A DNA stretch of 64,000 nt from Noviherbaspirillum sp. L7-7A (GTDB lineage: Bacteria > Pseudomonadota > Gammaproteobacteria > Burkholderiales > Burkholderiaceae_D). The notes below the pieces were generated by a model. The model did not search any database. It was given only the letters and a program-made list of their open reading frames with translations, and was not told where the DNA came from. Where the stretch lies: contig NZ_JAHQRJ010000003.1 in NCBI RefSeq assembly GCF_019052805.1, positions 62,001 through 126,000 on the forward strand. The letters are read 5' to 3'. Below, in pieces: positions 42,790 through 61,702 of the stretch; positions within the stretch are counted from its first letter, which is position 1, and the number at the start of each line of letters is the position of its first letter. The position numbers were made by a program, and so were the translations under genes.

Positions 42790-42805
42790 AATGACTACGG
42801 TCAAT
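42790..42805. promoter_or_regulatory. Near-consensus Crp/Fnr-type box
   Basis: AATGACTACGGTCAAT matches ATTGACC-N2-GGTCAAT at 12 of 14 fixed positions. Its centre lies 68 bases upstream of the small gene's ATG at 42729, which would give a transcript with a leader of about 27 bases if activation is at -41.5. Confidence 0.45.
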
Positions 42806-43980: not shown

Positions 43981-44748
43981 TTACTCGAAACGGTTACGCA
44001 GCTTTCCGATGCCGCCGATCTCGACCTCGACGATGCTGCCGGGCTTCATCGAACCCACGCCGACAGAGGTGCCGCACAGGATCATGTCGCCGGGATAGAG
44101 CGTCATGTCGCGTGAAATCATGCTGACCAATTTTTGTACCGGAAACACCATGTCATTGACCGGGTAGTCCTGCCGCACCTCGCTGTTGAGCATGGTGCGT
44201 ACAACCAGCATGGCGGGGTCGAGGCCGGTGGCCACCACCGGGCCGAACGGACAGAAGGTATCGAAGCCCTTGGCGCGCGCCCACTGGGGGAAAGTTGGGT
44301 CACGCTGAATGATGTCGGCCACGGTAACGTCATTGGCGCAGGTGTAGCCAAACACATGGGCGAGCGCATCTTCCTCGGCAACGTCGCTGCAGGTCTTGCC
44401 AATGATGACGCCCAGTTCGCCTTCGTAGACGACCTTGCCTTCATCGCGCGGCTTCCTGATGGTCTCGCCGGGATTGAGGTAGGAATTGGACGACTTGATC
44501 AGATAAAGCGGCTCCTTAGGCGGCGGCAGTTCAAGCTTGCGGCCAAGTGCATGGAAGTTGTTCCAGAGCGCGATGACCTTGCCCGGCACGACGGGGGTGA
44601 GCAACTTGACGTCGTTCATCGTCGTCGAGAGATCGGTCGGGATGGGGTCGACCATCATGTCGCCTTCGAAGATCCGGATTTTCTCGCCTTCCAGCGTACC
44701 GAAGCAGACTTGACCTTGATGCTGAAACCGCAGCCAGCGTTGAATCAT
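43981..44748 (-). CDS. Fumarylacetoacetate hydrolase-family protein
   Basis: A 255-residue protein of the FAH superfamily. The metal site is visible as VVYEGELGVIIGKTCSDV (Glu-x-Glu) and CANDVTVADIIQRD (Asp). SSNSYLNPGETI and GDMILCGTSVGVGSMKPGSIVEVEIGGIGKLRNRF are typical. Members hydrolyse or decarboxylate beta-dicarbonyl and oxaloacetate-like acids. AGGGGA precedes the ATG. It heads a two-gene unit with the PanE-like gene. A weak match to the Crp/Fnr-type box lies about 170 bases upstream. Confidence 0.88.
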   Translation of the reverse strand: MIQRWLRFQHQGQVCFGTLEGEKIRIFEGDMMVDPIPTDLSTTMNDVKLLTPVVPGKVIALWNNFHALGRKLELPPPKEPLYLIKSSNSYLNPGETIRKPRDEGKVVYEGELGVIIGKTCSDVAEEDALAHVFGYTCANDVTVADIIQRDPTFPQWARAKGFDTFCPFGPVVATGLDPAMLVVRTMLNSEVRQDYPVNDMVFPVQKLVSMISRDMTLYPGDMILCGTSVGVGSMKPGSIVEVEIGGIGKLRNRFE

Positions 44749-44912
44749 TTGATTGTCCCCTAATAAGCCGGCAGAGAGCTACGCATGGCACGGATGCGAT
44801 GCGCTCGACCTTTAATGATGGTGCTGGGCACGGAGCGGACTCAGGGTCCGCTGCAACAGGCCCAAGCATGAATGAGCATGCTTTTATTGTGTGAGAAGGC
44901 CCTGTCCAGTGC

Positions 44913-44928
44913 CTTGACCACGGTTAAG
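44913..44928. promoter_or_regulatory. Degenerate Crp/Fnr-type box
   Basis: CTTGACCACGGTTAAG matches the ATTGACC-N2-GGTCAAT pattern at 11 of 14 fixed positions. It lies in the promoter region of the FAH-family gene, centred 172 bases from its start. Alone it would not be persuasive. Confidence 0.3.
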
Positions 44929-45844: not shown

Positions 45845-45858
45845 GGACGTTGGCCGCT

Positions 45859-46870: not shown

Positions 46871-46886
46871 ATTGACCTCGGTCAAT
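46871..46886. promoter_or_regulatory. Perfect ATTGACC-N2-GGTCAAT box upstream of oxc
   Basis: ATTGACCTCGGTCAAT is a complete palindrome in the LysR-oxc intergenic region, centred 185 bases before the oxc start. The same 16-mer pattern recurs, perfect or nearly so, upstream of the Crp/Fnr gene and the second HPP gene. It fits a Crp/Fnr (FixK/FNR-like) site. Confidence 0.65.
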
Positions 46887-47063
46887 GAGAAGGAAATGGC
46901 CTCATCGCTATGATGCGGCTACTTAATCGGGGCATGCAGGCAGCCAAGCAAGGCCTGCACCGACGAGTCGACACGGGCATGCGTTCAAGAATAGCCTGCG
47001 AACACCTAGTGCGCGACCTAATCGAGCGCGCCAACTTTTCGACCGAATCCCACAGGAGCAAGC

Positions 47064-48869
47064 ATGTCTTCAGTACTGAAAAAGACCGAGACCGACGAGA
47101 CCACCCTGCTGAAAGAGCAGAGCCAGGAGGCAGGCCAGGCGCAGGGCGCGGACGTTGCCGAGCAGACCGACGGCTTCCACGTGCTTCTCGATGCATTGAA
47201 AGCCAATGACGTCGAGACCATTTACGGCCTGGTCGGCATCCCCATCACTGACCTGGCCCGCCTGGCGCAGGCCGAGGGCTTTCGCTTCATCGGCTTCCGC
47301 CATGAAGCCAATGCCGTCAATGCCGCCGCCATCGCCGGCTACCTGACCAAAAAGCCCGGCATCGCCATGACCGTTTCCGCACCCGGCTTCCTCAACGGCC
47401 TGGTCGCGCTGGCCAATGCCACCGTGAACTGCTTCCCCATGATCATGATCTCCGGCTCCTCCGAGCGCGAGATCGTTGACCTGGCCCAGGGCGACTATGA
47501 AGAGCTCGACCAGCTCAATGCCGCCAAGCCTTATGTGAAGGCCTCCTACCGCATCAACCATATCGAGGACATCGGCATCGGCGTGGCGCGCGCCATCCGC
47601 GCTGCCGTCTCCGGCCGTCCCGGCGGCGTCTATCTCGACGTGCCGGCCAAGCTGCTCGGCCAAGCCATGGATGCCGCCGCCGCCCAGCGCTCCATCGTCA
47701 AGGTGGTCGACCCGGCACCGGCCCAGCTGCCCGCACCCGACGCCATCGCCCGCGCGCTGGACGTGCTGAAGAAGGCCAAGCGCCCGGTCATCATGCTCGG
47801 CAAGGGCGCCGCCTATGCCCAGGCCGATGCCGACATCCGCGCCTTTGTCGAGCGCACCGGCATCCCGTATCTGGCCATGTCCATGGCCAAGGGCCTGCTG
47901 CCCGACAACCATCCGCAGGCTGCCATCGCCGCCCGCTCTTACGCCCTGAAGGAAGCCGACTGCGTCATGCTCATCGGCGCGCGCCTGAACTGGCTGCTCT
48001 CGCATGGCAAGGGCCCGACCTGGGGCGGCAAGGACCACAAGGACTGGGCACAGAAGAGCTTCGTGCAGATCGATATCTCGGCACAGGAGATGGACTCCAA
48101 CGTGCCCATCGATGCACCCCTGGCCGGCGACATCGGCTCCACCGTCTCGGCACTGCTGGCCGCGATCGACCAGACCGGCTTCGACAAGCCCGATGCTGCC
48201 TGGACCGGCGCCATTGCCGAAAAGCGCGATGCCAACGTCGCCAAGATGGCCAAGACCCTGTCGGCCAAGTCCGCGCCGATGAACTTCATGACCGCGCTGT
48301 CGGCCATGCGCGATGTGCTCAAGGACAAGCCCGATGTCTACCTCGTCAATGAAGGCGCCAACACGCTGGATCTTGCGCGCAGCGTGATCGACATGATGGA
48401 GCCGCGCAAGCGCCTGGACTCCGGCACCTGGGGCGTCATGGGCATCGGCATGGGCTATGCCATCGGCGCGGCGGTGACCAGCGGCAAGCCGGTGGTGGCG
48501 CTCGAAGGCGACTCGGCGTTTGGCTTCTCGGGCATGGAAGTCGAGACCATCTGCCGCTACAACCTGCCGGTGACGGTGGTGATCTTCAACAACAACGGCG
48601 TCTACAAGGGTTGCGATGTCAACCCCACCGGCGGCGCCGACCCGGCCCCCACCGTGTTCGTCAAGGGCGCGCGCTACGACATGCTGATGCAGGCCTTTGG
48701 CGGCGAGGGTTCGACCGTGAACACGCCCGAGGAACTGTCGGCGGCGCTGGCGCAGGGCATCAGTTCGGGCAAGCCCACGCTGATCAATGTGGTCATCGAC
48801 GAGAACGCCGGCACCGAGAGCGGACGCATCACCCATCTGAACCCGCAGAGCGCAGCCAAGAAGAAGTAA
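47064..48869 (+). CDS. oxc: Oxalyl-CoA decarboxylase
   Basis: A 601-residue ThDP enzyme that converts oxalyl-CoA to formyl-CoA and CO2. The N-terminal ThDP part has [15 protein letters not shown] and the catalytic Glu81 in GFRHEANAV. The middle domain has [20 protein letters not shown]. The C-terminal ThDP motif runs from [31 protein letters not shown]. It resembles the Oxalobacter formigenes enzyme throughout but has about 28 extra Glu/Gln/Thr-rich residues at the N-terminus. AGGAG six bases before the ATG supports that start. It is followed after 58 bases by frc. Confidence 0.97.
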
Positions 48870-48927
48870 GCACGCAACGCATCCGAGCACACCAGAGAAC
48901 AACCGAGACACTCAAGGAGATAGACAC

Positions 48928-50196
48928 ATGGACAAACCGCTGCAAGGACTCAAGATCATCGACTTCACCCACGTCCAGGCCGGCCCGGCCTGCACCCAGA
49001 TGCTGGCCTGGTTTGGCGCGGACGTGATCAAGGTCGAGCGCCCCGGCGCCGGCGACGTTACCCGCAGCCAGCTGCGCGACATTCCCGATGCCGACGCGCT
49101 GTACTTCACGATGCTCAACTCCAACAAGCGCTCGCTGACGCTGGACACGAAGAAGCAAGAAGGCAAGGACGTGCTGGAGAAGCTGATCAAGGAGTCCGAC
49201 GTGATGGTGGAGAACTTCGGTCCCGGCGCGCTGGACCGCATGGGCTTTACCTGGGAGCGCATCCAGGAACTGAACCCGAAGATGATCCTGGCTTCGGTCA
49301 AGGGCTTCTCCGAAGGCCATCACTATGAAGACCTGAAGGTCTACGAGAACGTGGCGCAGTGCGCCGGCGGCGCAGCCTCGACCACCGGCTGGTGGAAGGG
49401 CGAGAATTCCGAGCCGACGATTTCGTCGGCGGCGCTGGGCGACTCCAACACCGGCATGCACCTGGCCATCGGCATCCTGACGGCCTACATCGGCCGCCAG
49501 AAGACGGGCCGTGGCCAGAAAGTGGCGGTATCGATGCAGGACGCGGTGCTGAACCTGTGCCGGGTCAAGATGCGCGACCAGCAGCGGCTGGAGCGGGTGG
49601 GCTACCTGGAAGAGTATCCACAGTATCCGCACGAGATGGAAGCCTTTGCCGACAAGGTCACGCCGCGCGGCGGCAATGCCGGCGGCGGCGGCCAGCCGGG
49701 CTGGATCCTGAAGTGCAAGGGCTGGGAGACCGACCCGAACGCGTACATCTACTTCACGGTGCAGGGCCATGCCTGGGAGCCGATCTGCGACGCGCTGGGC
49801 AAGCCGGAATGGAAGACCGACCCGGCCTATACGACGCCGAAGGCTCGCCAGCCGCACATCAACGAGATCTTTGCCACGATCGAGGACTTCATCAAGGACA
49901 AGACCAAGTTTGAGGCGGTGAACGTGTTCCGCAAGTTCGACATCCCGTGCGCGCCGGTGCTGTCGATGAAGGAACTGCTGGTGGACGAGTCGCTGCGCAA
50001 GTCGGGCTCGATCGTGGAAGTGGAGCATCCGGTGCGCGGCTCGTACTTCACCATTGGCAGCCCGATCAAGTTCTCGGACCTGAAGCCGGAAGTGACGGCG
50101 TCACCGCTGCTGGGCCAGCACACCGACGAAGTGCTGGAAGAGCTGGGCTACAGCACGCAGCAGATCGCTGCGATGCATGAGGCCAAGGCGGTGTAA
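48928..50196 (+). CDS. frc: Formyl-CoA:oxalate CoA-transferase (copy 1)
   Basis: A 422-residue class III CoA-transferase that moves CoA from formyl-CoA to oxalate. The catalytic Asp is Asp172 in [16 protein letters not shown]. The flexible glycine loop typical of Frc is intact (GGGGQPGW, residues 252-259). The start is marked by AAGGAGA. Together with oxc it forms a two-gene operon closed by a terminator and completes the oxalate-to-formate cycle. Confidence 0.96.
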
Positions 50197-50224
50197 GCAG
50201 CACCCTGCCCTATCTCCAGAATCG

Positions 50225-50259
50225 CGTCCGGCTTCCAACCAGGGGCCGGACGTTTTTTT
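50225..50259 (+). terminator. Intrinsic terminator of oxc-frc
   Basis: CGTCCGGC and GCCGGACG form an 8-bp stem with a 12-base loop followed by seven T, 28 bases after the frc stop. Confidence 0.9.
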
Positions 50260-50285
50260 ATGACTAAAACTACGGGAGGGACGCC

Positions 50286-50723
50286 ATGGAAACATCCATC
50301 GACTTTGAGCAATTGCTCAAGGCCATAGGCGACGGCGTGGTCGTGGCTGACGCCAGGGGCAACATCATATTCTGGAATGCGGCGGCCGAGCGGATCTTCG
50401 GCTTCACCGAGCAGGAAGCCATCGGCAAATCGCTCGACCTGATCATCCCGGAACGGCAGCGACAGCGTCACTGGGATGGCTATCAAAAGACCATGGACAC
50501 CGGGCAAACCCGCTATGGCCATGATTTGCTGCGGGTGCCTGCCCTGCACAAGGAAGGGCGGCCGCTATCGATTGCGTTCACGGTGGCGATGCTCTACACG
50601 CCGGATCATAAAGTGTCGGCCATCGTCGCTGTCGTGCGTGATGAGACTGCGCGCTGGACGGATGAGCGCGACATGCGCAAGCGCATCGCGGAGCTGGAAG
50701 CGAGTCAGAAGCAGGCCGTTTGA
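50286..50723 (+). CDS. Single-domain PAS protein
   Basis: A 145-residue protein made of one PAS domain (about residues 8-120): LLKAIGDGVVVADARGNIIFWNAAAERIFGFTEQEAIGKSLDLIIPERQRQRHWDGY, then a PAC-like end with VVRDETARWTDERDMR and a short helical tail. No kinase, cyclase or DNA-binding output domain is present. It may bind heme, flavin or another small ligand and signal by contact. GGGAGGG precedes the ATG. It lies between two terminators, so it is expressed separately from oxc-frc. Confidence 0.88.
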   Translation: METSIDFEQLLKAIGDGVVVADARGNIIFWNAAAERIFGFTEQEAIGKSLDLIIPERQRQRHWDGYQKTMDTGQTRYGHDLLRVPALHKEGRPLSIAFTVAMLYTPDHKVSAIVAVVRDETARWTDERDMRKRIAELEASQKQAV

Positions 50724-50739
50724 GGAAATTACCGTAATT

Positions 50740-50769
50740 AAAAAAGCCCGCAGCAAGCGGGCGTTTTTT
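50740..50769. terminator. Bidirectional intrinsic terminator between the PAS and HPP genes
   Basis: GCCCGC-AGCAA-GCGGGC with an A-run on the left and six T on the right; it serves the convergent PAS and HPP genes. Confidence 0.9.
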
Positions 50770-50783
50770 CCGAAAGGCCAGGG

Positions 50784-51986
50784 TTAGACGCCTGAACCCG
50801 ATACCGCAGCAAGCCTGGCGCTGCGCACCGGCCGGCCCAGGTTCTTCTCGTACAGGGTAGCAATCATGTCGGACTGGGTGACCATGCCCACCAGGCGGCG
50901 CTCCTCGTCCACAACAGGAATCGAATGCAGGCCGGCGTCGGACATCAGCGGCACCAGTTCAACCACAGGCTGTTTCTCATAGGCGGTGCGCACATCTGTG
51001 TGCATGATCTGTCCCACGACTTCAGGCTTGATCGAATGGGTATGGCGTATCGGCTGCAGCAGGCGCTGCAGGCCATGCCCGAGCCGCGCATATTTCCCGG
51101 CCTTGGCATGCGCGATGAAGTCCGCTTTGGTGATAATGCCTATGACGCGATTGCCACGGTCAACGACAGGCAATGCGGTCAGCCGGTGCTTGTGCAGCAT
51201 GTCCCACGCCTCCTGCAACTCGCTGCCGAACATCACGCTGCGCACATCGCGCGACATCACATCGGCGCAGCGGGTAATGCCGAAGCGCCGCTGATAGGCC
51301 TGCATCTCGGTTTCGACCAGAATGGTCTGCAGATCTTCCCGGCTGATGTCGAGCACCTGGTTATAGCGCGCCAGCACGGCGTCCAGGTCTTCACTCGTGA
51401 TGCCAAGGCGGGCGGTCGGGATCGGATCCCGGGTCTCATGCCGAGTGGCCGGGTCAGCTTGCACCCGATGGGGGTAGCGCCTGCCGGTGGCATTGTTGTA
51501 GAACAGTGCCGTACCCAGCAACAGCAGCGAATTCAGGGCAACCGGATAAAGGATGAACTGGTAGCCCATCGCATGGATCGCAGGGCCACCCAACACCGCG
51601 GTCAGCGCCACGGCGCCACTGGGAGGATGCAGGCAGCGCAGCATGAACATGGCGGCGATGGCAAGCGATGCGGCCAGCGCGGCGGCCAGCAGCGGCGTGC
51701 CGATCAGCTTGGCGCAGGTCACGCCGATCAAGGCGGCCACCAGATTGCCGCCGATGATGGACCATGGCTGCGCCAGCGGACTAGCTGGCACGGCGAACAG
51801 CAACACGGCGGATGCGCCCATCGGCGCTATCAGCAACATCGCATTGGCGGGATCGGGAAGGATGACATAGGTGCACAGGCCGGTAAGGATGAGGCCGAAC
51901 AAGGCGCCCGCGCAGGCGCGCATCCGCTCGAAGCGGTCAGTGGTTCCGGGAGCGGGCAAGAGGCTGGACAGGAATTCGATTTTCAT
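50784..51986 (-). CDS. HPP-family membrane protein with two C-terminal CBS domains (copy 2)
   Basis: A 400-residue paralog of the gene at 5142-6314 with the same order of parts. The HPP membrane domain is at about residues 20-160, with CLHPPSGAVALTAVLGGPAIHAMGYQF. A linker follows, then a CBS pair with HRLTALPVVDRGNRVIGIITKADFIAH and HSIPVVDEERRLVGMVTQSDMIATLYE. The product may be a transporter gated by nucleotides binding the CBS pair. A 13-of-14 match to the Crp/Fnr-type palindrome lies 250 bases upstream, which copy 1 does not have. The Shine-Dalgarno is weak (AAAGAA). Confidence 0.86.
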   Translation of the reverse strand: MKIEFLSSLLPAPGTTDRFERMRACAGALFGLILTGLCTYVILPDPANAMLLIAPMGASAVLLFAVPASPLAQPWSIIGGNLVAALIGVTCAKLIGTPLLAAALAASLAIAAMFMLRCLHPPSGAVALTAVLGGPAIHAMGYQFILYPVALNSLLLLGTALFYNNATGRRYPHRVQADPATRHETRDPIPTARLGITSEDLDAVLARYNQVLDISREDLQTILVETEMQAYQRRFGITRCADVMSRDVRSVMFGSELQEAWDMLHKHRLTALPVVDRGNRVIGIITKADFIAHAKAGKYARLGHGLQRLLQPIRHTHSIKPEVVGQIMHTDVRTAYEKQPVVELVPLMSDAGLHSIPVVDEERRLVGMVTQSDMIATLYEKNLGRPVRSARLAAVSGSGV

Positions 51987-52231
51987 TCGTATTCTTTGAA
52001 AGACGTGGCTTCGAGGCTGGCGGACAGGCTGAAGATGTCATGCCGGCCGCCTGCAGCTTGTCGCCGAGGGAAACCCTGCACACGGCAAGCGGCGGAGCAG
52101 GTTTGTGGCCGTCGCAGCCCAGGACCTATGCGATTGCCATCCCTGACTGCAACGCCGGCGTCGGCCAGGGAGGCTGCGGCCGTTTCCTTCACTGGCGGAA
52201 TTCATTGTATGAAATCAGGGCTGTTTGTCAC

Positions 52232-52247
52232 ATTGACCATGGTCAAG
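52232..52247. promoter_or_regulatory. ATTGACC-N2-GGTCAA box upstream of HPP copy 2
   Basis: ATTGACCATGGTCAAG matches the palindrome at 13 of 14 fixed positions. It lies between the terminator at 52294-52324 and the HPP gene, so its target is most likely the HPP gene, from which it is centred about 253 bases. Confidence 0.55.
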
Positions 52248-52293
52248 CATGAAAAAATTGGGCAGTGACCGCGGGCTTTCGGGCAGCGGCAAG

Positions 52294-52324
52294 TAAAAAG
52301 CCCACGCAGGCAAAGCGTGGGCTT
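52294..52324 (-). terminator. Intrinsic terminator of the zinc-finger peptide gene
   Basis: AAGCCCACGC and GCGTGGGCTT form a 10-bp stem with a 7-base loop. On the minus strand the stem is followed by a short U-rich stretch (complement of AAGTAAAA). Confidence 0.8.
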
Positions 52325-52438
52325 GAACGTGCCCGGCGAGCGGGCACATGAATCTGTGGATCTTTTGCGGACAACGGGCTCGTCGGCCCACACCAGCAAA
52401 CGCAACTGCAGAGGCTGCTGGTATAGGCCAAACGCCCG

Positions 52439-52645
52439 CTAGCAGTGAACCACGCCGGATCCGTCGCAACGGGAACAGGCTTCGGTGCCAACACCGTGGC
52501 AGGAAGGGCACCTGGCCGGCTCAGGGCTTTCGCCTGGCGCCATGTTAACGATCGCCTCGCTGTTTTCCTTTGCGACCTTTCCTGTTCCCTTGCATCTGTG
52601 ACATTGAAGTATGCCGCTGCCATTGCACTTTGGACATGCCGCCAT
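52439..52645 (-). CDS. Stand-alone DnaJ-type zinc-finger peptide
   Basis: A 68-residue protein built from four CxxCxGxG repeats: CPKCNGSG (Cys4/7), CHRCKGTG (Cys15/18), CPSCHGVG (Cys46/49) and CSRCDGSG (Cys57/60), plus a C-terminal Cys68. This is the cysteine-rich module of DnaJ without the J-domain or the substrate-binding domain. The two repeat pairs are separated by a 27-residue linker. It should bind two zinc ions. AAGGAGA lies a few bases before the ATG, and a terminator follows. The role is unknown; a metallochaperone or thiol-redox role is conceivable. Confidence 0.82.
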   Translation of the reverse strand: MAACPKCNGSGILQCHRCKGTGKVAKENSEAIVNMAPGESPEPARCPSCHGVGTEACSRCDGSGVVHC

Positions 52646-52743
52646 GATCGTCTCCTTAATCTAATGTTCGACTACCTACGTCTGATTGCATTCGATGCCG
52701 GCCCGTTCCCGGCCATCGCTCCCCATCCTGCATCCTGAACAGA

Positions 52744-53712
52744 TCAGGCCGCAGCCATAAGCCGCCGCACATGCGCCGCCGTGCCATTGGCCAGGCCTTC
52801 CATGCTATATCCCCCTTCCAGTACTGACACGACGCGGCCCTTGCAAGTGGCATCGGCGATCCGCATCAGCTCATCGGTTATCCAGCGAAAATCATCGTCC
52901 TGCAATTCAAGCGACGCCAGCGGGTCCAGATGGTGGGCATCGAACCCGGCCGAAATGATGAGGAATTCAGGCGCGAAGTCGCGCAATGCCGGCAGGATCT
53001 CGGCCTCGCTCCTGGCCCTGAACTGGGCAGAGTCGCAGCCGCGCGCCAGCGGCAGGTTCACGATGTTATGGTCAACCCCGGTTTCATTGCGGCTTCCAGT
53101 GCCGGGATAGAAGGGCGACTGATGGCTCGACGCGTAGAACATGCCCGGCTTGTTGTAGAAGGCCGCCTGGGTGCCGTTTCCATGGTGAACATCGAAGTCC
53201 ACCACGGCAACCCGCGTCAGGCCATGGCGCTCGGCCGCATAGGCCGCCGCAATCGCGGCCTGGTTGAAGACGCAAAAGCCCATTGCCCGGTCGGGCTCGG
53301 CATGGTGGCCGCATGGCCGGGTTGCGCAGAATACATTGTCGACTTCGCCGGCCATCACCGCGTCGACGCCGGCGCAGGCAGCGCCCACGCAGCGCATGAC
53401 GGCTTCCAGCGAACCGGGCGACATCACGGTGTCGCCGCCGTCCAGCACCAGGTAACCCCGGCTCGGCGCGTTGTCCATGATTTGGTCGATGAAGTCGGCG
53501 TCGTGAATCAGCGCCACCTGGTCCCGCGTGCCCAGCGGCGCGTCCTGCCACTGCAGCGCTTCGAAGCCCGGCGCCTTCAGTGCCGCCAGCACGGCGCGCA
53601 GGCGCTCCGGCGACTCGGGATGCCCTGGCCCGGGCTTGTGTTCCATGCAGGCGGCATGGGTATAGATACGTGTGGTCATGGCGATGCATGCCGGCGCTTG
53701 CGCGACCGGCAT
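52744..53712 (-). CDS. Histone deacetylase-family (acetoin utilization/AphA-type) protein
   Basis: A 322-residue zinc-dependent deacylase of the class II HDAC-like family. The active-site segments are HAEPDRAMGFCVFNQAAIAA, VAVVDFDVHHGNGTQAAFY and LIISAGFDAHHLDPLA, with His and Asp ligands intact. Bacterial members deacetylate polyamines or other small amides or lysines. I favour the start at 53712, preceded by AAAGGAGG, though the ATG at 53679 fits homologs. It follows fdhD on the same strand after 87 bases, so it could be read with the formate dehydrogenase genes. Confidence 0.88.
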   Translation of the reverse strand: MPVAQAPACIAMTTRIYTHAACMEHKPGPGHPESPERLRAVLAALKAPGFEALQWQDAPLGTRDQVALIHDADFIDQIMDNAPSRGYLVLDGGDTVMSPGSLEAVMRCVGAACAGVDAVMAGEVDNVFCATRPCGHHAEPDRAMGFCVFNQAAIAAAYAAERHGLTRVAVVDFDVHHGNGTQAAFYNKPGMFYASSHQSPFYPGTGSRNETGVDHNIVNLPLARGCDSAQFRARSEAEILPALRDFAPEFLIISAGFDAHHLDPLASLELQDDDFRWITDELMRIADATCKGRVVSVLEGGYSMEGLANGTAAHVRRLMAAA

Positions 53713-53799
53713 TGCCTCCTTTCAGCTAACCGGTCCAGGGCATGGGGTGCCGGAGTGGCTAGTCCCATCGCTGGCCGGAGAAAACAGAAAATACGAAAC

Positions 53800-54645
53800 T
53801 CAATGGGCATGCGCGGCCAGCTCTAGCAATTCGGGCTCGAACACCATTCTTTCCTTCCCGGTCAACAGCAGGAAGTGCTTGCCAGTGCAGCGGGTCAGCA
53901 GCGACATGCCCAGCTGCTGCGCCACCATGTGGCCCATCTGGGTCGTTCCCGAGCGCGACAGCAGGAAGGGAATTCCCATCTGCGCGCCCTTGATGACCAT
54001 CTCGGAAGTCAGCCTGCCGGTGGTATAGAAGACCTTGTCATCGCCGTGCACGCCATCGAGCCACATCAGGCCCGAGATCGCATCGACCGCGTTATGGCGG
54101 CCCACGTCCTCGACGAAATAGATCAGTTCGCCTTTCGCCGAAAACAGCGCGCAGCCGTGCACCGAGCCAGCCTGCTTGTAGATCGATTGCTGCAAGCGGA
54201 TGGTGTTGACGATGCTGTACAGCACAGACTGACGCAGCCGCGCATGGGGCGACAGCACGATGCGGTCGACCTCATCCATCAGCCCGCCGAACACCGAGCC
54301 TTGGCCGCAGCCGGTAGTGACCACCTTGCGGGCAGTGCGCTCCTCGATATCAGCGATGCCGTTGACCGTTGTGACGGCCACGGCATCGACGGACCAGTCG
54401 ACCTGCACCGAGCGGATCTCTGAGATGTCCTTCACCAGGCGCTGGTTACGAAGGTAGCCCAGCACCAGCGCCTCGGGCGCGCCGCCCAGCGTCATCAGCG
54501 TGACCAGCTCGCGCTTGTCGACATACACCGTCAACGGCCGCTCGGCCGGTATTGCAATGGTGCTGGCCCTGCCCCGCTCGTCCAGCACGTCGATGTCGTG
54601 GGTCAGCGTGGCGGCGGCATTGGAAAGGAAGGGAAGATGCTTCAT
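53800..54645 (-). CDS. fdhD: Formate dehydrogenase accessory protein FdhD/FdsC
   Basis: A 281-residue protein of the FdhD family, which delivers sulfur to the molybdenum cofactor of formate dehydrogenases. The motif VVTTGCGQGSVFGGLMDEVDRI holds only one Cys, whereas E. coli FdhD uses a Cys-x-x-Cys pair. It has family segments GALFSAKGELIYFVEDVGRHNAVDAISGLMW and FYTTGRLTSEMVIKGAQMGIPFLLSRSG. Its start overlaps the fdsA stop by four bases, so it is translationally coupled to the enzyme it serves. Confidence 0.93.
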   Translation of the reverse strand: MKHLPFLSNAAATLTHDIDVLDERGRASTIAIPAERPLTVYVDKRELVTLMTLGGAPEALVLGYLRNQRLVKDISEIRSVQVDWSVDAVAVTTVNGIADIEERTARKVVTTGCGQGSVFGGLMDEVDRIVLSPHARLRQSVLYSIVNTIRLQQSIYKQAGSVHGCALFSAKGELIYFVEDVGRHNAVDAISGLMWLDGVHGDDKVFYTTGRLTSEMVIKGAQMGIPFLLSRSGTTQMGHMVAQQLGMSLLTRCTGKHFLLLTGKERMVFEPELLELAAHAH

Positions 54646-57536
54646 AGCAGCGAAAGCGGATCCGCTTCCCGGTTACGGACCAGTAGTCCTTCAAGAGGAC
54701 GGCCTTGCCGGCTGGTTTCCACCGCTTCCAGGGCCTGGCCACCGCCATAACTGCTCTGGGCCGGCGCCTCGCCACCCGCCGTGATCCGGATCGCGCAGTA
54801 CTTGAACTCCGGTATCTTGGCGAACGGGTCCAGCGCGGAATTGGTGAGCCGGTTGATTGCGGCCTCGTAATAGCAGAACGGCACGAACACGCCGCCGCGT
54901 GGCGAGCCTTCATCGGCACGGGCATACAAGGACACTTTGCCGCGGCGGGATTCGATCGTGATCAGGTCGCCGGGCAGGATATTCATCTGCGCCAGGTCCA
55001 GCGGATGCACCAGCGCCACCGGGTCCGGCTCGAGTGCGTCAAGCACCGTGGCGCGCCGGGTCATGCTGCCGGTATGCCAGTGCTCCAGCTGGCGGCCAGT
55101 GATCAGAACCATCGGGTAGTCATGGTCCGGCCGCTCGGCCGCCGGAATGATATCCGCCGGCACGAAGCGCGCCCTGCCCGATTCACGCGGGAAGCTGTCG
55201 ACGAACACTACCGGGTCGCCCGCATCGCCTTCCTTGCGGCAGGGATAGGTCACCGCATTGTCGCGTTCCAGCCGCTCCCAGGTAATGCCGGCAATGCTGG
55301 GCATGGTGTGGCGCATCTCGTCGAAGACTTCCGACACATGGCCGTAATTCCAGTCGAGCCCGATGCGGCGCGCCAGTTCCTGGATAATCCACAGGTCGGG
55401 CTTGGCCTGGCCCGGCGGATCGATGGCCTGGCGTCCCATCTGCACAAGGCGGTCGGTGTTGGTGAAGGTGCCGGTCTTCTCCGAGAAGGCTGTGGCGGGC
55501 AGGATTACGTCAGCCAGGTAGGCAGTCTCGGTCAGAAAGATGTCCTGCACCACCAGGTGGTCGAGCGCGGCCAGCGCTTCGCGGGCATGGTTGGCATCGG
55601 GGTCGGACATTGCCGGGTTCTCGCCCATCACATACATGCCGCGGATATCGCCATGCTTGATCGCATGCATCACTTCCACCACAGTCAGGCCGGGCTTGCT
55701 GTCCAGCGTGCCCGCCGGCACCTTCCAGGCCTGCTCGAAACTGGACTGCACTGCTGGATCGGACACATGCTGGTAGTCCGGATACATCATCGGGATCAGG
55801 CCGGCATCGGACGCGCCCTGCACATTGTTCTGGCCGCGCAGCGGATGCAGGCCCGTGCCGGGACGGCCGATCTGGCCCGTCATCAAGGCCAGCGCAATCA
55901 GGCAGCGGGCATTATCGGTACCATGCACGTGCTGGGATACGCCCATGCCCCACAGGATCATCGACGACTTCGAGGTTGCATACAGCCGCGCCACGTAACG
56001 CAGCGTCTCGGCATCGATGCCGCAGATCGGCGCCATCTTCTCCGGGCTGTATTCCGCCACGTTGGCTTTCAGCTCCTCGTAGCCTATGGTGCGGCTTTCA
56101 ATGAAAGCCTGGTCCACCAGGCCTTCTTCAACGATCACATGCATCATCGCGTTGAGCATGGCCACGTCAGTGTCGGCCTTGAACTGCATGTAGCGGTGAG
56201 CGAAGCGCGCCAGCTCCGAGCGGCGCGGGTCGCAGACGACGAGCTTGCTGCCATTGGCTACCGCATTCTTGATCCAGGTCGCCGCCACCGGATGGTTCAC
56301 GGTCGGGTTGGCGCCGATGATTACGATGACCTCGGCCTTGGTCACATCCATCACCGGGTTCGATACCGCGCCCGAGCCGATGCCTTCGAGCAGCGCCACC
56401 ACCGAGGAGGCATGGCACAGCCGGGTGCAGTGGTCGACGTTGTTGCTGCCAAAGCCGGTGCGCACCAGCTTCTGGAACAGGTAGGCTTCCTCGTTGCTGC
56501 CCTTGGCGGAACCGAAACCGGCCAGCGCGCCCTTGCCATGGGTATCGCGGATGTTGCGCAGGCGGCCGCCGGCGAAGTCCAGCGCTTCTTCCCAGGTCGC
56601 TTCGCGGAACACGTCCATCACCCGGTCCGGGTCCATGGTGAAGTCGCCGGTCTTGGGCACGCCTTCGCGCCGGATCAGCGGCATCGTCAGGCGATGCGGA
56701 TGATGGGCATAGTCGAAACCATAGCGGCCCTTGACGCACAGCCGGCCATGGTTGGCCGGGCCGTCGCGGCCTTCGACATACAGGATCTTGTTGTCCTTGA
56801 CGTTGTAGGTCAGCTGGCAACCCACGCCACAATACGGGCAGACCGAGTCGACCTGCTTGTCCGGCACCGACAGCGCGGCCTCGCGCGCGGGCATCAGTGC
56901 GCCGGTCGGGCAGGCCTGCACGCATTCGCCGCAGGCGACGCAGGTGGAGTTGCCCATCGGGTCGTCCATGTCGAAAACAATCTTTTCCGCCTGGCCGCGC
57001 AGCGCCAGGCCGATCACGTCATTCATCTGCTCGTCGCGGCAGGCGCGCACGCAGCGGGTGCACTGGATGCAGGCATCGAGATTGACGGAAATGGCCGGAT
57101 GCGACAGGTCGGGCGCGACACGGGCCCGCGGCTCGAAGCGCGGCTTGCCGACCGCCAGTTCCTCGGCCCATTCATCGACTTCATTGTGCAGCGTGTAATC
57201 GGCTTCGGGCATGTCCGACTGCAGTAGCTCCAGCACCATGCGCTGGGAGTGTTGGGCGCGCTCGCTGTCGCTGCTGACCTGCATGCCCGGCGTTGGCCGG
57301 CGGCAGCAGGAAGGCGCCAGCGCCCGCTCGCCATTGATCTCCACCATGCAGGCGCGACAGTTGCCGGCCGGGTCCATGCCAGGCTTGTAGCACAGCCGCG
57401 GTATCGATACGCCTTCGCGGTCAGCCACTTCGATGATGGTGTCGGTTACGAAGGCAGTGACTGGCTGGCCATTCAGCGTGAACTCGACCACTGGCGCATC
57501 GAGCTGGGCAATTTCATTACGGGTAATGGCATTCAT
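54642..57536 (-). CDS. fdsA: NAD-dependent formate dehydrogenase, alpha (catalytic) subunit
   Basis: A 964-residue molybdenum enzyme subunit that oxidises formate to CO2. In order: an N-terminal [2Fe-2S] domain (about 15-90); two [4Fe-4S] ferredoxin motifs, CIQCTRCVRAC and CVACGECVQACPTGA; the FDH [4Fe-4S] motif CPYCGVGC near 235; the bis-MGD catalytic domain; and the C-terminal molybdopterin-binding domain. The Mo ligand should be the Cys of HCTRLCHASS near residue 375, so this is not a selenoenzyme. Its start is two bases after the fdsGB stop. A small FdsD subunit is not encoded nearby. Confidence 0.95.
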   Translation of the reverse strand: MNAITRNEIAQLDAPVVEFTLNGQPVTAFVTDTIIEVADREGVSIPRLCYKPGMDPAGNCRACMVEINGERALAPSCCRRPTPGMQVSSDSERAQHSQRMVLELLQSDMPEADYTLHNEVDEWAEELAVGKPRFEPRARVAPDLSHPAISVNLDACIQCTRCVRACRDEQMNDVIGLALRGQAEKIVFDMDDPMGNSTCVACGECVQACPTGALMPAREAALSVPDKQVDSVCPYCGVGCQLTYNVKDNKILYVEGRDGPANHGRLCVKGRYGFDYAHHPHRLTMPLIRREGVPKTGDFTMDPDRVMDVFREATWEEALDFAGGRLRNIRDTHGKGALAGFGSAKGSNEEAYLFQKLVRTGFGSNNVDHCTRLCHASSVVALLEGIGSGAVSNPVMDVTKAEVIVIIGANPTVNHPVAATWIKNAVANGSKLVVCDPRRSELARFAHRYMQFKADTDVAMLNAMMHVIVEEGLVDQAFIESRTIGYEELKANVAEYSPEKMAPICGIDAETLRYVARLYATSKSSMILWGMGVSQHVHGTDNARCLIALALMTGQIGRPGTGLHPLRGQNNVQGASDAGLIPMMYPDYQHVSDPAVQSSFEQAWKVPAGTLDSKPGLTVVEVMHAIKHGDIRGMYVMGENPAMSDPDANHAREALAALDHLVVQDIFLTETAYLADVILPATAFSEKTGTFTNTDRLVQMGRQAIDPPGQAKPDLWIIQELARRIGLDWNYGHVSEVFDEMRHTMPSIAGITWERLERDNAVTYPCRKEGDAGDPVVFVDSFPRESGRARFVPADIIPAAERPDHDYPMVLITGRQLEHWHTGSMTRRATVLDALEPDPVALVHPLDLAQMNILPGDLITIESRRGKVSLYARADEGSPRGGVFVPFCYYEAAINRLTNSALDPFAKIPEFKYCAIRITAGGEAPAQSSYGGGQALEAVETSRQGRPLEGLLVRNREADPLSLL

Positions 57537-57538
57537 GT

Positions 57539-59245
57539 TCAGTTCCCGGTCAGTTCATGGGGAAAGTAGCGGACCACGCAGTCCACCGGATTCGGCGCGG
57601 CCTGGCCCAGGCCGCAGATCGAGGCGTCGCGCATGACCTGCGACAGCTCCGCCAGCAAGGGCACGTCCCATACCGGCTTCTCGATCAGGGTCAGCGCCTT
57701 GGCCGTGCCCACCCGGCACGGCGTGCACTGCCCGCACGACTCGTCCTTGAAGAAGCGCATCAGGTTGCGCGCCGCGCCCTTGGCGCTGTCGGCATCCGAC
57801 AGCACCACCACCGCCGCCGAGCCGATGAAGCAGCCATGCGGCTGCAGCGTGTCGAAGTCCAGCGGGATGTCGTTCATCGTCGCCGGCAATATCCCGCCCG
57901 ACGCGCCGCCCGGCAGGTAGGCATAGAAGGCATGGCCCTGCTGCATGCCGCCGCAGTATTCGTCGATCAGCTCCTGGATCGTGATGCCCGCCGGCGCCAG
58001 CTTCACGCCCGGGTTCTTCACCCGGCCCGACACCGAGTACGAGCGCAGCCCCTTCCTGCCATGCCGGCCATGCGAGGCAAACCAGTCCGCGCCCTTCTCC
58101 AGGATGTCGCGCACCCAGTACAGCGTCTCGAAGTTGTGCTCCAGCGTGGGCCGGCCGAACAGGCCGACCTGGGCCACATACGGCGGGCGCAGCCGCGGCA
58201 TGCCGCGCTTGCCTTCGATGGACTCGATCATGGCCGACTCCTCGCCGCAGATATAGGCGCCGGCGCCGCGCCGCAGCACAATGCGCGGCATGCCGGGCAT
58301 CGGCGCCTGGGCCTGCAGGGCCGCCAGCTCGCGCTGCAGCAGCGCGCGGCAGCCGTGGTACTCGTCGCGCAGGTAGATGTAGATGTCCTCGATGCCCACC
58401 GCCCAGGCGGCAATGAGCATGCCTTCGAGGAAGCGGTGCGGATCGGTTTCGAGGTAGACCCGGTCCTTGAAGGTGCCGGGCTCGCCCTCGTCGATGTTGA
58501 CCGCCATCAGGCGCGGGCCGGCCTCGGCGCGCACGATGCGCCATTTGCGCCCGGCCGGAAAGCCGGCGCCGCCCAGGCCGCGCAGGCCGGACGATTCCAT
58601 CGTGGCCAGCACGCTGTCGACATCGATCTCGCCCGAGATGCACTTTTGCAGCAGCTGGTAGCCGCCCTGCCCGACATAGCCGGCATGGTCGAGATAGCCG
58701 GGCGCGGGCACATCGGTGACCTCGCCTGCCTGGACGGCGGCCTGCACGGTCTCGCACTGCGCCTGGGCGATGGGCTTCTGGCCGACCACGGCCACCGGCG
58801 CCTGTTCGCAGCGGCCCACGCAGGGCGCGGCCAGCACGCGCACGTCGGCGCCGAGGATGGCGGGCAGGCGCTCGATCAGTTCAGCGGCGCCGGCCAGTTC
58901 GCAGGCGATGCCGTCGCAGACGCGCACGGTGAGCGCGGCCGGCGCATCCTCGCCTTCGCGCACGATATCGAAATGGTGATAGAAGCTGGCGACCTCGTAG
59001 ACCTCGGTCTGGGCCATGCGCAGTTCCTGGGCCAGGGCGGCCAGATGCGGTGTCGACAGGCAGCGGTAGCGGTCCTGGATCAGGTGCAGGCACTCGATCA
59101 GCAGGTCGCGCCGGCGCGGCATGTCGCCCAAGAGCGCCTGCACTTCGGACAGGGCCTGCGGATCGACCCGCCGGCCCTTGGGTGCCTGGCGCTTGCGCTG
59201 TTTGCTTGCGCCTTGCACCGCGATCGGAATGATTATCTTGTTCAT
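57539..59245 (-). CDS. Formate dehydrogenase diaphorase subunit, FdsG-FdsB fusion
   Basis: A 568-residue protein that joins two parts usually made separately. Residues about 30-185 are NuoE/FdsG-like: LALAQELRMAQTEVYEVASFYHHF, then a [2Fe-2S] set in VCDGIACEL and APCVGRCEQAP. Residues about 205-560 are NuoF/FdsB-like, with the FMN/NAD sites GLRGLGGAGFPAGRKW and GAGAYICGEESAMIESIEGKRG and the [4Fe-4S] motif ESCGQCTPCRVGTAKAL. It passes electrons from FdsA to NAD+. The start has only a weak upstream purine stretch. Confidence 0.92.
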   Translation of the reverse strand: MNKIIIPIAVQGASKQRKRQAPKGRRVDPQALSEVQALLGDMPRRRDLLIECLHLIQDRYRCLSTPHLAALAQELRMAQTEVYEVASFYHHFDIVREGEDAPAALTVRVCDGIACELAGAAELIERLPAILGADVRVLAAPCVGRCEQAPVAVVGQKPIAQAQCETVQAAVQAGEVTDVPAPGYLDHAGYVGQGGYQLLQKCISGEIDVDSVLATMESSGLRGLGGAGFPAGRKWRIVRAEAGPRLMAVNIDEGEPGTFKDRVYLETDPHRFLEGMLIAAWAVGIEDIYIYLRDEYHGCRALLQRELAALQAQAPMPGMPRIVLRRGAGAYICGEESAMIESIEGKRGMPRLRPPYVAQVGLFGRPTLEHNFETLYWVRDILEKGADWFASHGRHGRKGLRSYSVSGRVKNPGVKLAPAGITIQELIDEYCGGMQQGHAFYAYLPGGASGGILPATMNDIPLDFDTLQPHGCFIGSAAVVVLSDADSAKGAARNLMRFFKDESCGQCTPCRVGTAKALTLIEKPVWDVPLLAELSQVMRDASICGLGQAAPNPVDCVVRYFPHELTGN

Positions 59246-59439
59246 CGTTTTCCAGCCAGCTCAGGGTTTAATGAATTAAAGCCTTCTTCCATGCATTCAA
59301 AGGGCTGCAACGGGGGCACCCGCGGCATCAGGCGCAACAGGCATGCATTCAACGTTTGATCGATGAGGTGGTGGCGTCGAACCGGCCGGGAAGGGCCGAC
59401 CGGCACCCGGTCCCTGCCCTACCCTATGCGCCTTCCGGT

Positions 59440-60690
59440 TCAGATCACGCGTTCTTCACGCAGGGCTGCGATCTGCTGTTCCGAATAACCCAGCTGCGTC
59501 AGCACTTCCTCGGTATGTTCCCCCAGCAGCGGCGAACGCGTCACTTCGGTTAGGCTGTCCGACAGCTTGATCGGATTGCCCACGGTCAGGTACTTGCCGC
59601 GCTTCGGGTGGTCCACCTCGACCACGGTGCCGGTCTTGCGCAGCGACGGCTCCTCGGCGATTTCCTTCATCGACAGGATGGGGCCGCAGGGAATGTCGTA
59701 CTTGTTGAGTATGTCCATGGCCTCGAACTTGGTCATGGTCTTGGTCCACTCCTCGACCGTGGCGAAGATCGTCATCAGGCGCGGCAGGCGCGCGCGTGGC
59801 GTCGCATAGTCAGGGTCGGTAATCCATTCCTCGCGTCCGATGACCTGGCAAATCGATTTCCATACCGGCGCCTGAGCGATGAAATAGATATAGGCATTCG
59901 GATCGGTCTCCCAGCCCTTGCACTTCAGGATCCAGCCCGGCTGTCCGCCACCGGAAGCATTGCCGGCGCGGGGCACTGCGTCGCCGAATTTCCGACCGTC
60001 GGAGAACTGCGGATATTCCTCCATCACGCCGGCATGCTCAAGCCGCTGCTGGTCGCGCAGCTTGACGCGGCACAGGTTCAGCACCGCATCCTGCATGGCG
60101 GTCAGCACCTTTTGGCCACGTCCGGTGCTATTGCGCTGGTACAGCGCGGTGACGATGCCCAGCGCCAGGTGCAGGCCAGTGCCGCTGTCGCCGATCTGCG
60201 CGCCGGTGACCAGCGGCGGGCCGTCGTCGAAGCCGGTGGTGGACGCCGAGCCGCCCGCGCATTGCGCAACGTTCTCGTACACCTTGCAGTCTTCATACGG
60301 TCCTGGGCCAAAGCCCTTCACCGAGGCCACCACCATGCGGGGGTTGAGTTCCTGGATCCGTTCCCAAGTAAAGCCCATGCGGTCCAGCGCGCCAGGCGCG
60401 AAGTTTTCCACCAGCACGTCGCATTGCTTGATCAGGGTTTCCAGCACTTCCTTGCCGGCCTGCTTCTTGGTGTCCAGCGTGATCGAGCGCTTGTTATGGT
60501 TCAGCATCGTGAAGTAGAGGCTGTCGGCATCGGGTACGTCGCGCAACTGTCCACGGGTCGCGTCACCTTCACCGGCACGCTCGACCTTGATCACGTCTGC
60601 TCCGAACCATGCCAGCAACTGCGTACAGGTGGGCCCGGACTGGACATGAGTGAAGTCGAGAATGCGGACGCCGTCGAGGGCTTTACTCAT
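59440..60690 (-). CDS. Formyl-CoA:oxalate CoA-transferase-like protein (copy 2)
   Basis: A 416-residue paralog of the frc at 48928. The opening [36 protein letters not shown] and the catalytic Asp168 in [16 protein letters not shown] are kept. In the glycine loop the first Gly is Ser (ASGGGQPGW, residues 245-253), a change close to the active site. It precedes fdsGB by 194 bases on the same strand and may share its transcript. AGGAG precedes the ATG. It may be a second Frc or accept a different acid. Confidence 0.9.
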
Positions 60691-60931
60691 TGAAGTCTCC
60701 TGATGATGTGTATATACCTGTCAGCATCGGCCGCCTCTGCGGGCTGGCTCGAAAGAATCTACTTGCTGCATCATGTTCCAGCCGGGCGGCATGTCGATGC
60801 CGCTTGCCTTGCTGGCTTACCGTCATTGAAGCACCCATGATGCTATTGCTTATTGACGGTATTTAATGCACTGCTACAGTAAATTCCACTGCTTAATCCT
60901 AATAAACTTTTCCGTTTAATGCGCTTGTAAA

Positions 60932-60960
60932 GTGATTTCATTTATCACATCATGCATGAT
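60932..60960. promoter_or_regulatory. Two adjacent inverted repeats upstream of frc2
   Basis: GTGATTTCATTTATCAC resembles a Crp-type half-site pair, with GTGA and TCAC separated by nine bases. It is followed at once by ATCATGCATGAT, a perfect palindrome. They lie in the frc2/Crp-Fnr divergent promoter and may bind one or two regulators. Confidence 0.4.
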
Positions 60961-61034
60961 AGCTTGCATGCGACTGGGCCCAAACACTGCGCGTCACGTT
61001 GAAGCCATCATAGCCAGCAGGCCTGCTTTTCCTC

Positions 61035-61050
61035 ATTGACCGGGGTCAAT
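61035..61050. promoter_or_regulatory. Perfect ATTGACC-N2-GGTCAAT box upstream of the Crp/Fnr gene
   Basis: ATTGACCGGGGTCAAT is centred 51 bases before the ATG of the Crp/Fnr regulator. It suggests autoregulation. If the box sits at -41.5 the transcript would start about ten bases before the ATG. Confidence 0.65.
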
Positions 61051-61093
61051 TTTCGCCGCATAGTGCCCTACCGACCTGATAACGAAACAAGAC

Positions 61094-61702
61094 ATGTCAT
61101 CTGTTGCAAGCCATCCAGAAAAAAACATTATTCGCGTCCAGCTCAAACAGAATAAAGTCCTGAAAAGCCTCAGGGAAAGCGAAATGGCTGCGCTTGAGCC
61201 CTACCTCACCGTGGTGGATTGCCAGAAGGGCGATGTGCTGCTGCATCAAGGCATCTACGAGATGGAGCAATATTTCATACTCGATGGCATTCTCAAACGG
61301 GCAGTGACCAACCAGAACGCCAAGGAAATGATCCTGCGCTTTGCTGCAGAGCGCGATATCGAAACAAGCTATGCCGCATGGCGGCTCAAGACGCCAACAC
61401 CGTACAGTATCGTATCAGTGACCAAGGCGCGGGTTGCTAAGCTCTCTTTGCCGCAATGGGTGATGTTCATCGAAAGCCATTCGGAAGTGAAACAAACCTT
61501 CGAGTTCGAGGTGATGCAGCTGATGAGCGAAATCATGGCTCATACCATCACACTGCATCTGCTGAACGCGCCTGGACGAGTACACCGGTTCGTGCGCAAG
61601 CATGCCGACCTGTTTGAGCGCCTTCCGAAGAAGGAATTGGCTTCCTATCTGAATTTGTCACCGGAAACATTGAGCCGTCTGAAGAATCAGGGAAAGATTT
61701 AA
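61094..61702 (+). CDS. Crp/Fnr-family transcriptional regulator
   Basis: A 202-residue regulator, slightly short for the family. The N-terminal cyclic-nucleotide-binding-like barrel covers about residues 25-120. A dimer helix follows (about 130-158), and the C-terminal helix-turn-helix ends KKELASYLNLSPETLSRLKNQGKI. The recognition helix keeps Glu191, Ser194 and Arg195, the E-x-x-S-R set with which FNR reads TTGA. It has only Cys43, so no FNR iron-sulfur cluster. It diverges from frc2 and has a matching palindrome upstream. It is the best candidate to bind the ATTGACC-N2-GGTCAAT boxes in this window. Confidence 0.9.
   Translation: MSSVASHPEKNIIRVQLKQNKVLKSLRESEMAALEPYLTVVDCQKGDVLLHQGIYEMEQYFILDGILKRAVTNQNAKEMILRFAAERDIETSYAAWRLKTPTPYSIVSVTKARVAKLSLPQWVMFIESHSEVKQTFEFEVMQLMSEIMAHTITLHLLNAPGRVHRFVRKHADLFERLPKKELASYLNLSPETLSRLKNQGKI

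Follow-up and report, generated by a model that had tools for sequence, protein, structure and literature searches.

A 64,000-nucleotide (nt) stretch of the genome of Noviherbaspirillum sp. L7-7A, here called the window, carries a palindrome, ATTGACC-NN-GGTCAAT, both before the oxalyl-CoA decarboxylase gene oxc and before the gene of a Crp/Fnr-type regulator (here crp). The window is C3:62001-126000 of the 5.22-Mb host genome (G000; three contigs, C1-C3). Which protein reads this palindrome, and what does it do at each place? The original prediction proposed an oxalate regulon under the locally encoded Crp/Fnr protein, and this was supported by the sites in the genome, the conserved upstream boxes and a contrast across the phylum. 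From these data we consider it highly likely that the protein encoded at 61094-61702 has this palindrome as its operator; it would be a pathway-specific regulator of oxalate use, activating the oxalate genes and limiting itself. Control of oxalate use very probably lies with this uncharacterised protein.

Both perfect copies of the palindrome were found again, ATTGACCTCGGTCAAT before oxc (46871-46886) and ATTGACCGGGGTCAAT before crp (61035-61050). The third copy, beside a gene for an HPP-family membrane protein (52232-52247), matched at 13 of the 14 fixed positions, as had been claimed. All three lay between recognised genes, again in line with the prediction; the HPP box overlapped by 5 nt an open reading frame (ORF) of 126 aa without Pfam match (52243-52623).

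At up to three mismatches, the window contained 11 matches versus 1.99 expected (standard deviation 1.53; shuffle maximum 8). The whole genome contained 24 places at up to two mismatches versus three for the reversed pattern. Only five had none or one: C3:108871 (oxc), C3:123035 (between crp and frc2, a second formyl-CoA transferase gene), C3:114232 (HPP), and C3:477151 and C3:477774, which share the interval separating a TctC gene from a second oxc-frc copy (oxc2). None of the five was inside a real gene. Equally good matches scattered inside genes, which would have spoken against the prediction, were not found among the five. With two mismatches, 12 of the 17 places outside the window (of 19 in all) were within predicted ORFs and 5 were not.

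Scoring with a matrix from relatives outside the genus placed the three boxes at the top of the window (26.6, 24.4 and 24.0), followed by 16.6 at 42790 and 15.6 at 44913. In 30 Markov shuffles the best score averaged 11.5 and reached 20.5 at most. The site at 42790 faces a minus-strand ORF without Pfam match. On contig C1, at 1501-1516 of locus L012, TTTGACCTGGGTCAAA stands between a CoA-ligase-like and a universal-stress-protein-like gene (both judged by eye); this site may belong to another Crp/Fnr protein.

The distribution of the regulator and its box was followed in a family sample of 392 genomes (regulator orthologues at E <= 1e-20, oxc at E <= 1e-150). Orthologues of the regulator were present in 76 genomes, from 24 of the 44 genera. 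Oxc was present in 66, and 61 of these carried the regulator too (Fisher p 9e-51, with genomes not independent and kinship uncorrected). In 70 of 75 distinct regions, the 200 nt before the regulator gene contained a strict box, TTGA[CT]N4[AG]TCAA. With a wider definition the count was 71 of 74, versus 0 of 74 for a reversed control. Boxes before the regulator gene occurred in 22 of the 24 genera.

Upstream of oxc the box was present in 65 of 68 cases, counting as a miss locus L093, of which only 10 upstream bases were covered; where at least 360 bases were available, it was present in 57 of 59. The same minimum length applied to the wider-definition count above and to the upstream counts of the other gene types below. 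In relatives that retain the regulator, the boxes were thus nearly always retained.

Among 62 distinct neighbourhoods of the regulator gene, window included (about 6 kb each way in many cases, less in some), frc relatives occurred in 50, PanE/ApbA-family reductase genes (panE) in 38, fumarylacetoacetate-hydrolase (FAH) family genes in 34, oxc in 34, oxalate/formate-antiporter relatives in 28 and small PAS proteins in 26. A divergent pair of oxc and regulator genes with one common box was found in many genomes; in the window, frc2 takes the place of oxc.

The position of the box relative to the promoters was also conserved, and it differed between the two kinds of gene. When 66 oxc promoters (a slightly larger locus set than the 65 used for base composition) were aligned on the box, a -10-like hexamer lay 22 nt past the 16-mer in 63, while most of the spacer was little conserved; any other offset from 15 to 29 gave at most 11. 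This spacing sets the box centre at about -41.5, with starts deduced from the hexamer position, which is the class II position of Crp/Fnr activators. The oxc -10 is 31 nt past the TTGACC of the box, a distance at which this hexamer could not act as a -35, and at the normal -35 distance the oxc promoters showed no conserved TTGACA-like hexamer. This suggested that the oxc promoters are activator-dependent. Among distinct frc upstreams, 24 of 87 contained a box, all 24 with the same 22-nt spacing to a -10.

At the regulator gene, the -10 lay 8 nt past the box in 64 of 71 promoters (no other offset in the range 3 to 29 exceeded 21). With this spacing, TTGACC of the box takes the -35 position, with 17 nt separating it from the -10. 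The common form was TTGACC-N17-CATnAT, and the window version has CATAGT. Nearly all boxes have C at position 6 of the 16-mer (crp, 67 of 71; oxc, 62 of 65). A genome scan for the box, 22 nt and a -10 gave three exact matches, oxc, frc2 (C3:123007-123049) and oxc2; one mismatch added HPP, C1:393581 and C3:108843, the last being the oxc box in backward reading. The geometry suggests class II activation of oxc and autorepression of the regulator gene.

From box conservation, co-occurrence with the regulator gene and spacings, all observed, we infer binding, activation and repression in the following form. A dimer of the regulator would bind ATTGACC-NN-GGTCAAT. At both oxc-frc copies, at frc2 with the formate dehydrogenase (fds) genes behind it, and at HPP, the box centre is at the class II position, so the bound protein would switch these genes on. 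At crp the -35 hexamer is part of the box itself, so the bound regulator would block RNA polymerase and limit its own synthesis. The single box at 61035 would thus turn frc2 up on one side and crp down on the other. A variant box described below would bring in further genes.

The same protein and box might also work with other roles, as an inducer-released repressor of the oxalate genes or as an activator of its own gene too. Binding sites alone cannot show direction, and one box faces both promoters. The oxc promoters, however, look activator-dependent, and the crp promoter, TTGACC-N17-CATnAT, needs no activator. We therefore regard these altered roles as unlikely, and activation of the oxalate genes with self-limitation as the preferred arrangement.

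To examine the tie between box and regulator beyond the family, 398 genomes sampled across the phylum were searched (oxc at E <= 1e-120, regulator at E <= 1e-10). Besides the host, 29 genomes had oxc, and six of these carried the regulator. All six (L308-L312 and L333) had the box before oxc; the 23 others did not. The 23 include four genomes from the order of the host, whose oxc shares 70-74% identity with the query. This ties the box to this protein and not to oxc as such. Chance as the origin of the boxes was ruled out by the whole-genome counts, the relatives and this phylum control.

The system apparently extends to the gut oxalate user Oxalobacter. G073, an Oxalobacter-like genome with regulator and boxes, encodes an Oxc that matches 2c31, the solved structure of the Oxalobacter formigenes enzyme, over residues 1-568 of 568 (1285 bits). 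In G073 and G049, four boxes precede oxc at 24-bp steps, and the last is followed by 22 nt and CATACT. Their regulator gene has two upstream boxes, the outer one with the 22-nt arrangement pointing to frc.

Several observations weigh against this interpretation. Four other Oxalobacter-like genomes (G006, G123, G136 and G157) have oxc boxes, with no regulator detected at E 0.001; in one, the gene may lie within unreadable sequence. G274 has no regulator and no box directly before oxc, and carries a TTGAT-type site with the 22-nt spacing before a frc-oxc operon, which suggested that sites of this kind may serve a different Crp/Fnr protein. In four compact genomes of one genus (L336-L339) the box precedes oxc and not the regulator gene, and in L340 no box was seen beside the regulator in the stretch covered. 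This suggested that autorepression is not universal. The regulator gene of G024 lacks a box, and that of G120 has a degenerate one only.

In the family sample, the contrast between genomes with and without regulator was less clean than in the phylum sample. Among 195 family genomes, a one-mismatch 16-mer was present in 53 of the 58 that carry the regulator (mean 2.9 per genome) and in 89 of the 137 that do not (mean 1.3), and its use as a genome-level marker was dropped as too unspecific; the specificity of the box is by place, not by occurrence alone. A box preceded HPP in one of three upstreams, that of the host genome alone, and a scan with the variant box at up to two mismatches found seven places versus five in its control.

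Some of these exceptions would agree with a box that serves a general FNR/ANR/DNR-type regulator of the cell, with the neighbouring Crp/Fnr gene merely one of its targets. The half-site and spacing are akin to FNR boxes, G274 and the four Oxalobacter-like genomes have such sites without a detected orthologue, and 13 stretches with a cyclic-nucleotide-binding-like domain passed E 0.001 in the host genome. Against this, the box before oxc tracked the orthologue across the phylum (6 of 6 versus 0 of 23), though the 23 genomes had 1 to 16 first-look candidates each. A global regulator would need more sites than the five with none or one mismatch in this genome, all at oxalate-linked genes or at HPP, and three of the four Oxalobacter-like exceptions were without such a domain at E 0.001. 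A general regulator is therefore quite improbable as the owner of the box. That the LysR-type protein encoded directly beside oxc (45850-46788; best NCBIfam match CbbR, 254.7 bits, below the cut-off of 450) binds the palindrome and controls oxc is scarcely credible, since, although the 16-mer holds the T-N11-A pattern of LysR boxes, relatives of it occurred in just 17 of the 62 neighbourhoods, the box was upstream of the LysR gene in 0 of 17 and it preceded the Crp/Fnr gene in 71 of 74, counts that ruled LysR out as box owner.

The properties of the regulator itself were compared among 73 distinct full-length orthologues without stops (202 aa). Its N-terminal cyclic-nucleotide-binding-like barrel matched PF00027 (E 3e-6, 27.5 bits, at the cut-off of 27.5), placing it in the Crp/Fnr superfamily. 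Sequence profiles that included the C-terminal helix-turn-helix (HTH) behind the dimerisation helix matched as well (DNR over 16-199 and 3dn7 over 26-198), from a comparison with a 34-orthologue alignment that included the window protein. Pfam HTH_Crp_2 was not reached in the window protein and stayed below cut-off in orthologue L213 (19.7 versus 27). The predicted structure was too poor for functional conclusions (pLDDT 60.1), and this approach was dropped. NCBIfam has no dedicated family; the only match at E 0.001 was an encapsulin model (19.6 bits versus a cut-off of 400). The closest named relatives are all Noviherbaspirillum: soli (99%), suwonense (94%) and pedocola (90%).

The residues E191, S194 and R195, noted before as the set by which FNR reads TTGA, were present, and the recognition helix E191-T-L-S-R195 was invariant in all 73. 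The absence of an iron-sulfur Cys cluster was likewise confirmed. The window protein has a single Cys, C43, at a position that is Cys in just 31 of 73, and the orthologues have 0 to 3 Cys each, with no C-x-x-C. The cysteines for a 4Fe-4S cluster of the FNR kind are thus absent. A motif search for the cAMP-pocket motif, G-E-x...R-S/T-A, was negative in 73 of 73. K68, R69, R82, E90, Y93, W96, R113, W122 and H150 were invariant, a set that would fit a charged ligand; our guess for the signal is oxalate or a CoA thioester derived from it. With H150, and with H7 and H155 present in 72 of 73, heme binding as in the sensors DNR and CooA is conceivable too.

Among known proteins, the regulator resembles the FNR/ANR/DNR branch in its two-part profile (DNR 3dkw, E 9.9e-7) and E-x-x-S-R recognition helix. 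With FNR it also shares the TTGA half-site, the 14-bp palindrome spacing and the class II position. Unlike the FNR site, whose consensus is TTGAT-N4-ATCAA, its box is TTGACC-NN-GGTCAA; it also differs in lacking the cluster cysteines, in ending just past the recognition helix and in having sites found only before oxalate genes and HPP. CRP matched by profile over 36-172, HTH not included (E 2e-5). CRP, too, is known both as a class II activator and as a repressor of its own gene, but the regulator has no cAMP-pocket motif and a different half-site. The best profile match was 3dn7 (E 1.1e-12), the solved structure of a cyclic nucleotide binding regulatory protein with no function given and not known to be linked to oxalate, whose chain of 194 residues is comparably short. 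In E. coli, the oxalate genes yfdXWUVE are controlled by EvgA, a two-component response regulator tied to acid stress. Both systems control transcription of oxc and frc homologues, but the protein and the site are unrelated.

The features assigned to the regulon, with the proposed promoter elements, are collected in the table.

Table. Features of the window assigned to the proposed oxalate regulon.
Feature	Position	Strand	Basis
PanE/ApbA-family reductase	42953..43963	-	PF02558, PF08546
Fumarylacetoacetate-hydrolase (FAH) family protein	43981..44748	-	PF01557
Proposed FAH-panE -10 CACAAT, 21 nt from variant box	44886..44891	-	Sequence; relatives
Variant box, minus-strand reading CTTAACCGTGGTCAAG	44913..44928		Recurs before FAH in relatives
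Box ATTGACCTCGGTCAAT before oxc-frc	46871..46886		Sequence; relatives
Proposed oxc -10 TATGAT, 22 nt past box (class II)	46909..46914	+	Sequence; composite scan
oxc, oxalyl-CoA decarboxylase	47064..48869	+	TIGR03254, 967 bits, cut-off 739
frc, formyl-CoA transferase copy 1	48928..50196	+	TIGR03253, 717 bits, cut-off 504
Small single-domain PAS protein behind frc	50286..50723	+	PF00989
HPP membrane protein with CBS domains	50784..51986	-	PF04982, PF00571
Proposed HPP -10 TACAAT, 22 nt from box	52204..52209	-	Sequence; one-mismatch composite
Box before HPP, 13 of 14 positions	52232..52247		Sequence
FdhD	53800..54645	-	PF02634
Formate dehydrogenase molybdenum subunit, FdsA-like	54642..57536	-	PF00384, PF01568, PF04879
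NAD-dependent formate dehydrogenase diaphorase part, FdsGB-like fusion	57539..59245	-	PF01257, PF01512, PF10589, PF10531
frc2, formyl-CoA transferase copy 2	59440..60690	-	TIGR03253, 741 bits, cut-off 504
Proposed frc2 -10 TATGAT, 22 nt from box	61007..61012	-	Exact composite match
Box ATTGACCGGGGTCAAT between crp (+) and frc2 (-)	61035..61050		Sequence; upstream conservation
TTGACC in box, proposed crp -35, 17-nt spacer	61036..61041	+	Sequence; N8 arrangement
Proposed regulator-gene -10 CATAGT	61059..61064	+	Sequence; spacing survey
Crp/Fnr-type regulator, 202 aa, proposed oxalate regulator	61094..61702	+	PF00027; orthologue profile; family distribution

The arrangement suggests that the crp-side box also serves frc2 with the fds genes behind it, an assignment absent from the original prediction. 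The FdsGB-like gene, from gene order and its 194-nt gap, would be co-transcribed with frc2; a box of its own upstream of FdsGB-type genes was found in 0 of 6 regions. FdhD is probably in the fds operon, by position. A histone-deacetylase-family protein (PF00850; 52744-53712) is encoded behind the fds genes, and relatives of it occur in 15 of the 62 neighbourhoods. The HPP/CBS membrane protein might, as a guess, be an anion carrier for the pathway.

The two oxc-frc copies are 99.8% identical over 3,212 bp (window 47051-50262; L023 7914-11125), and their promoters differ. This points to recent gene conversion, or to a copying event that did not include the control region. That the box was carried along with the duplication was ruled out, since the near-identical segment starts 3' of both boxes.

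The variant box extends the list. Its 16 bases, with the 21-nt spacing to CACAAT, recurred before FAH in L122, L124, L132, L137 and L180, and close variants were found in L140, L145 and L148, giving 9 of 28 FAH upstreams, window included. A genome scan at up to one mismatch gave three sites, at FAH-panE, in the TctC/oxc2 region and at C2:658428. The last is overlapped by a dubious 86-aa ORF; it too has N21-CACAAT and stands before a gene whose product scored 559.6 bits with the oxalate/formate antiporter model TIGR04259 (cut-off 335). Since the wider scan was barely above its control, the weight of this extension rests on the spacing and the identity of the genes. FAH-panE probably belongs to the regulon, which through the variant box would also include the antiporter. 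In Methylobacterium a panE relative is an oxalyl-CoA reductase, and the window reductase is a candidate for the same function.

In one genus (g28) and a few other genomes, a thiamine pyrophosphate (TPP) enzyme is encoded in the usual place of oxc (L135 6784-8550, L145, L148 and L140; also L146 and L089). It was also seen in L220 and L222 at about 5.1-6.9 kb, and Oxalobacter-like genomes carry it besides oxc. It is nearest to acetolactate synthase PRK05858, below cut-off (448.8 versus 587), and scored 229 with the Oxc model (cut-off 739). The oxc-type box and spacing were present in 12 of 12 of its upstreams.

Among the matches listed in the open-access literature, no paper named such an oxc/frc regulator in Burkholderiales or Oxalobacter, and in the main texts of PMC9812493, PMC12927642 and PMC9476978 the terms regulator, Crp and Fnr were not found.

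A bolder generalisation is conceivable, though we put it somewhat short of an even chance. A Crp/Fnr subfamily without FNR cysteines or cAMP motif may be the master oxalate switch in several Burkholderiales families and in Oxalobacter, sensing oxalate or a pathway CoA thioester directly. One palindrome would then act on two divergent promoters in opposite senses, with frc or oxc activated and the -35 of the regulator blocked; in two Oxalobacter-like genomes it stands in four copies, at a 24-bp period, before oxc.

If the PanE/ApbA-family protein is the oxalyl-CoA reductase, dissimilation and assimilation of oxalate would come under one regulator. If the regulon is as proposed, a single protein and a single 16-bp site would suffice to test the switch for oxalate breakdown, both in a gut bacterium of interest for kidney stones and in oxalate users of the soil.

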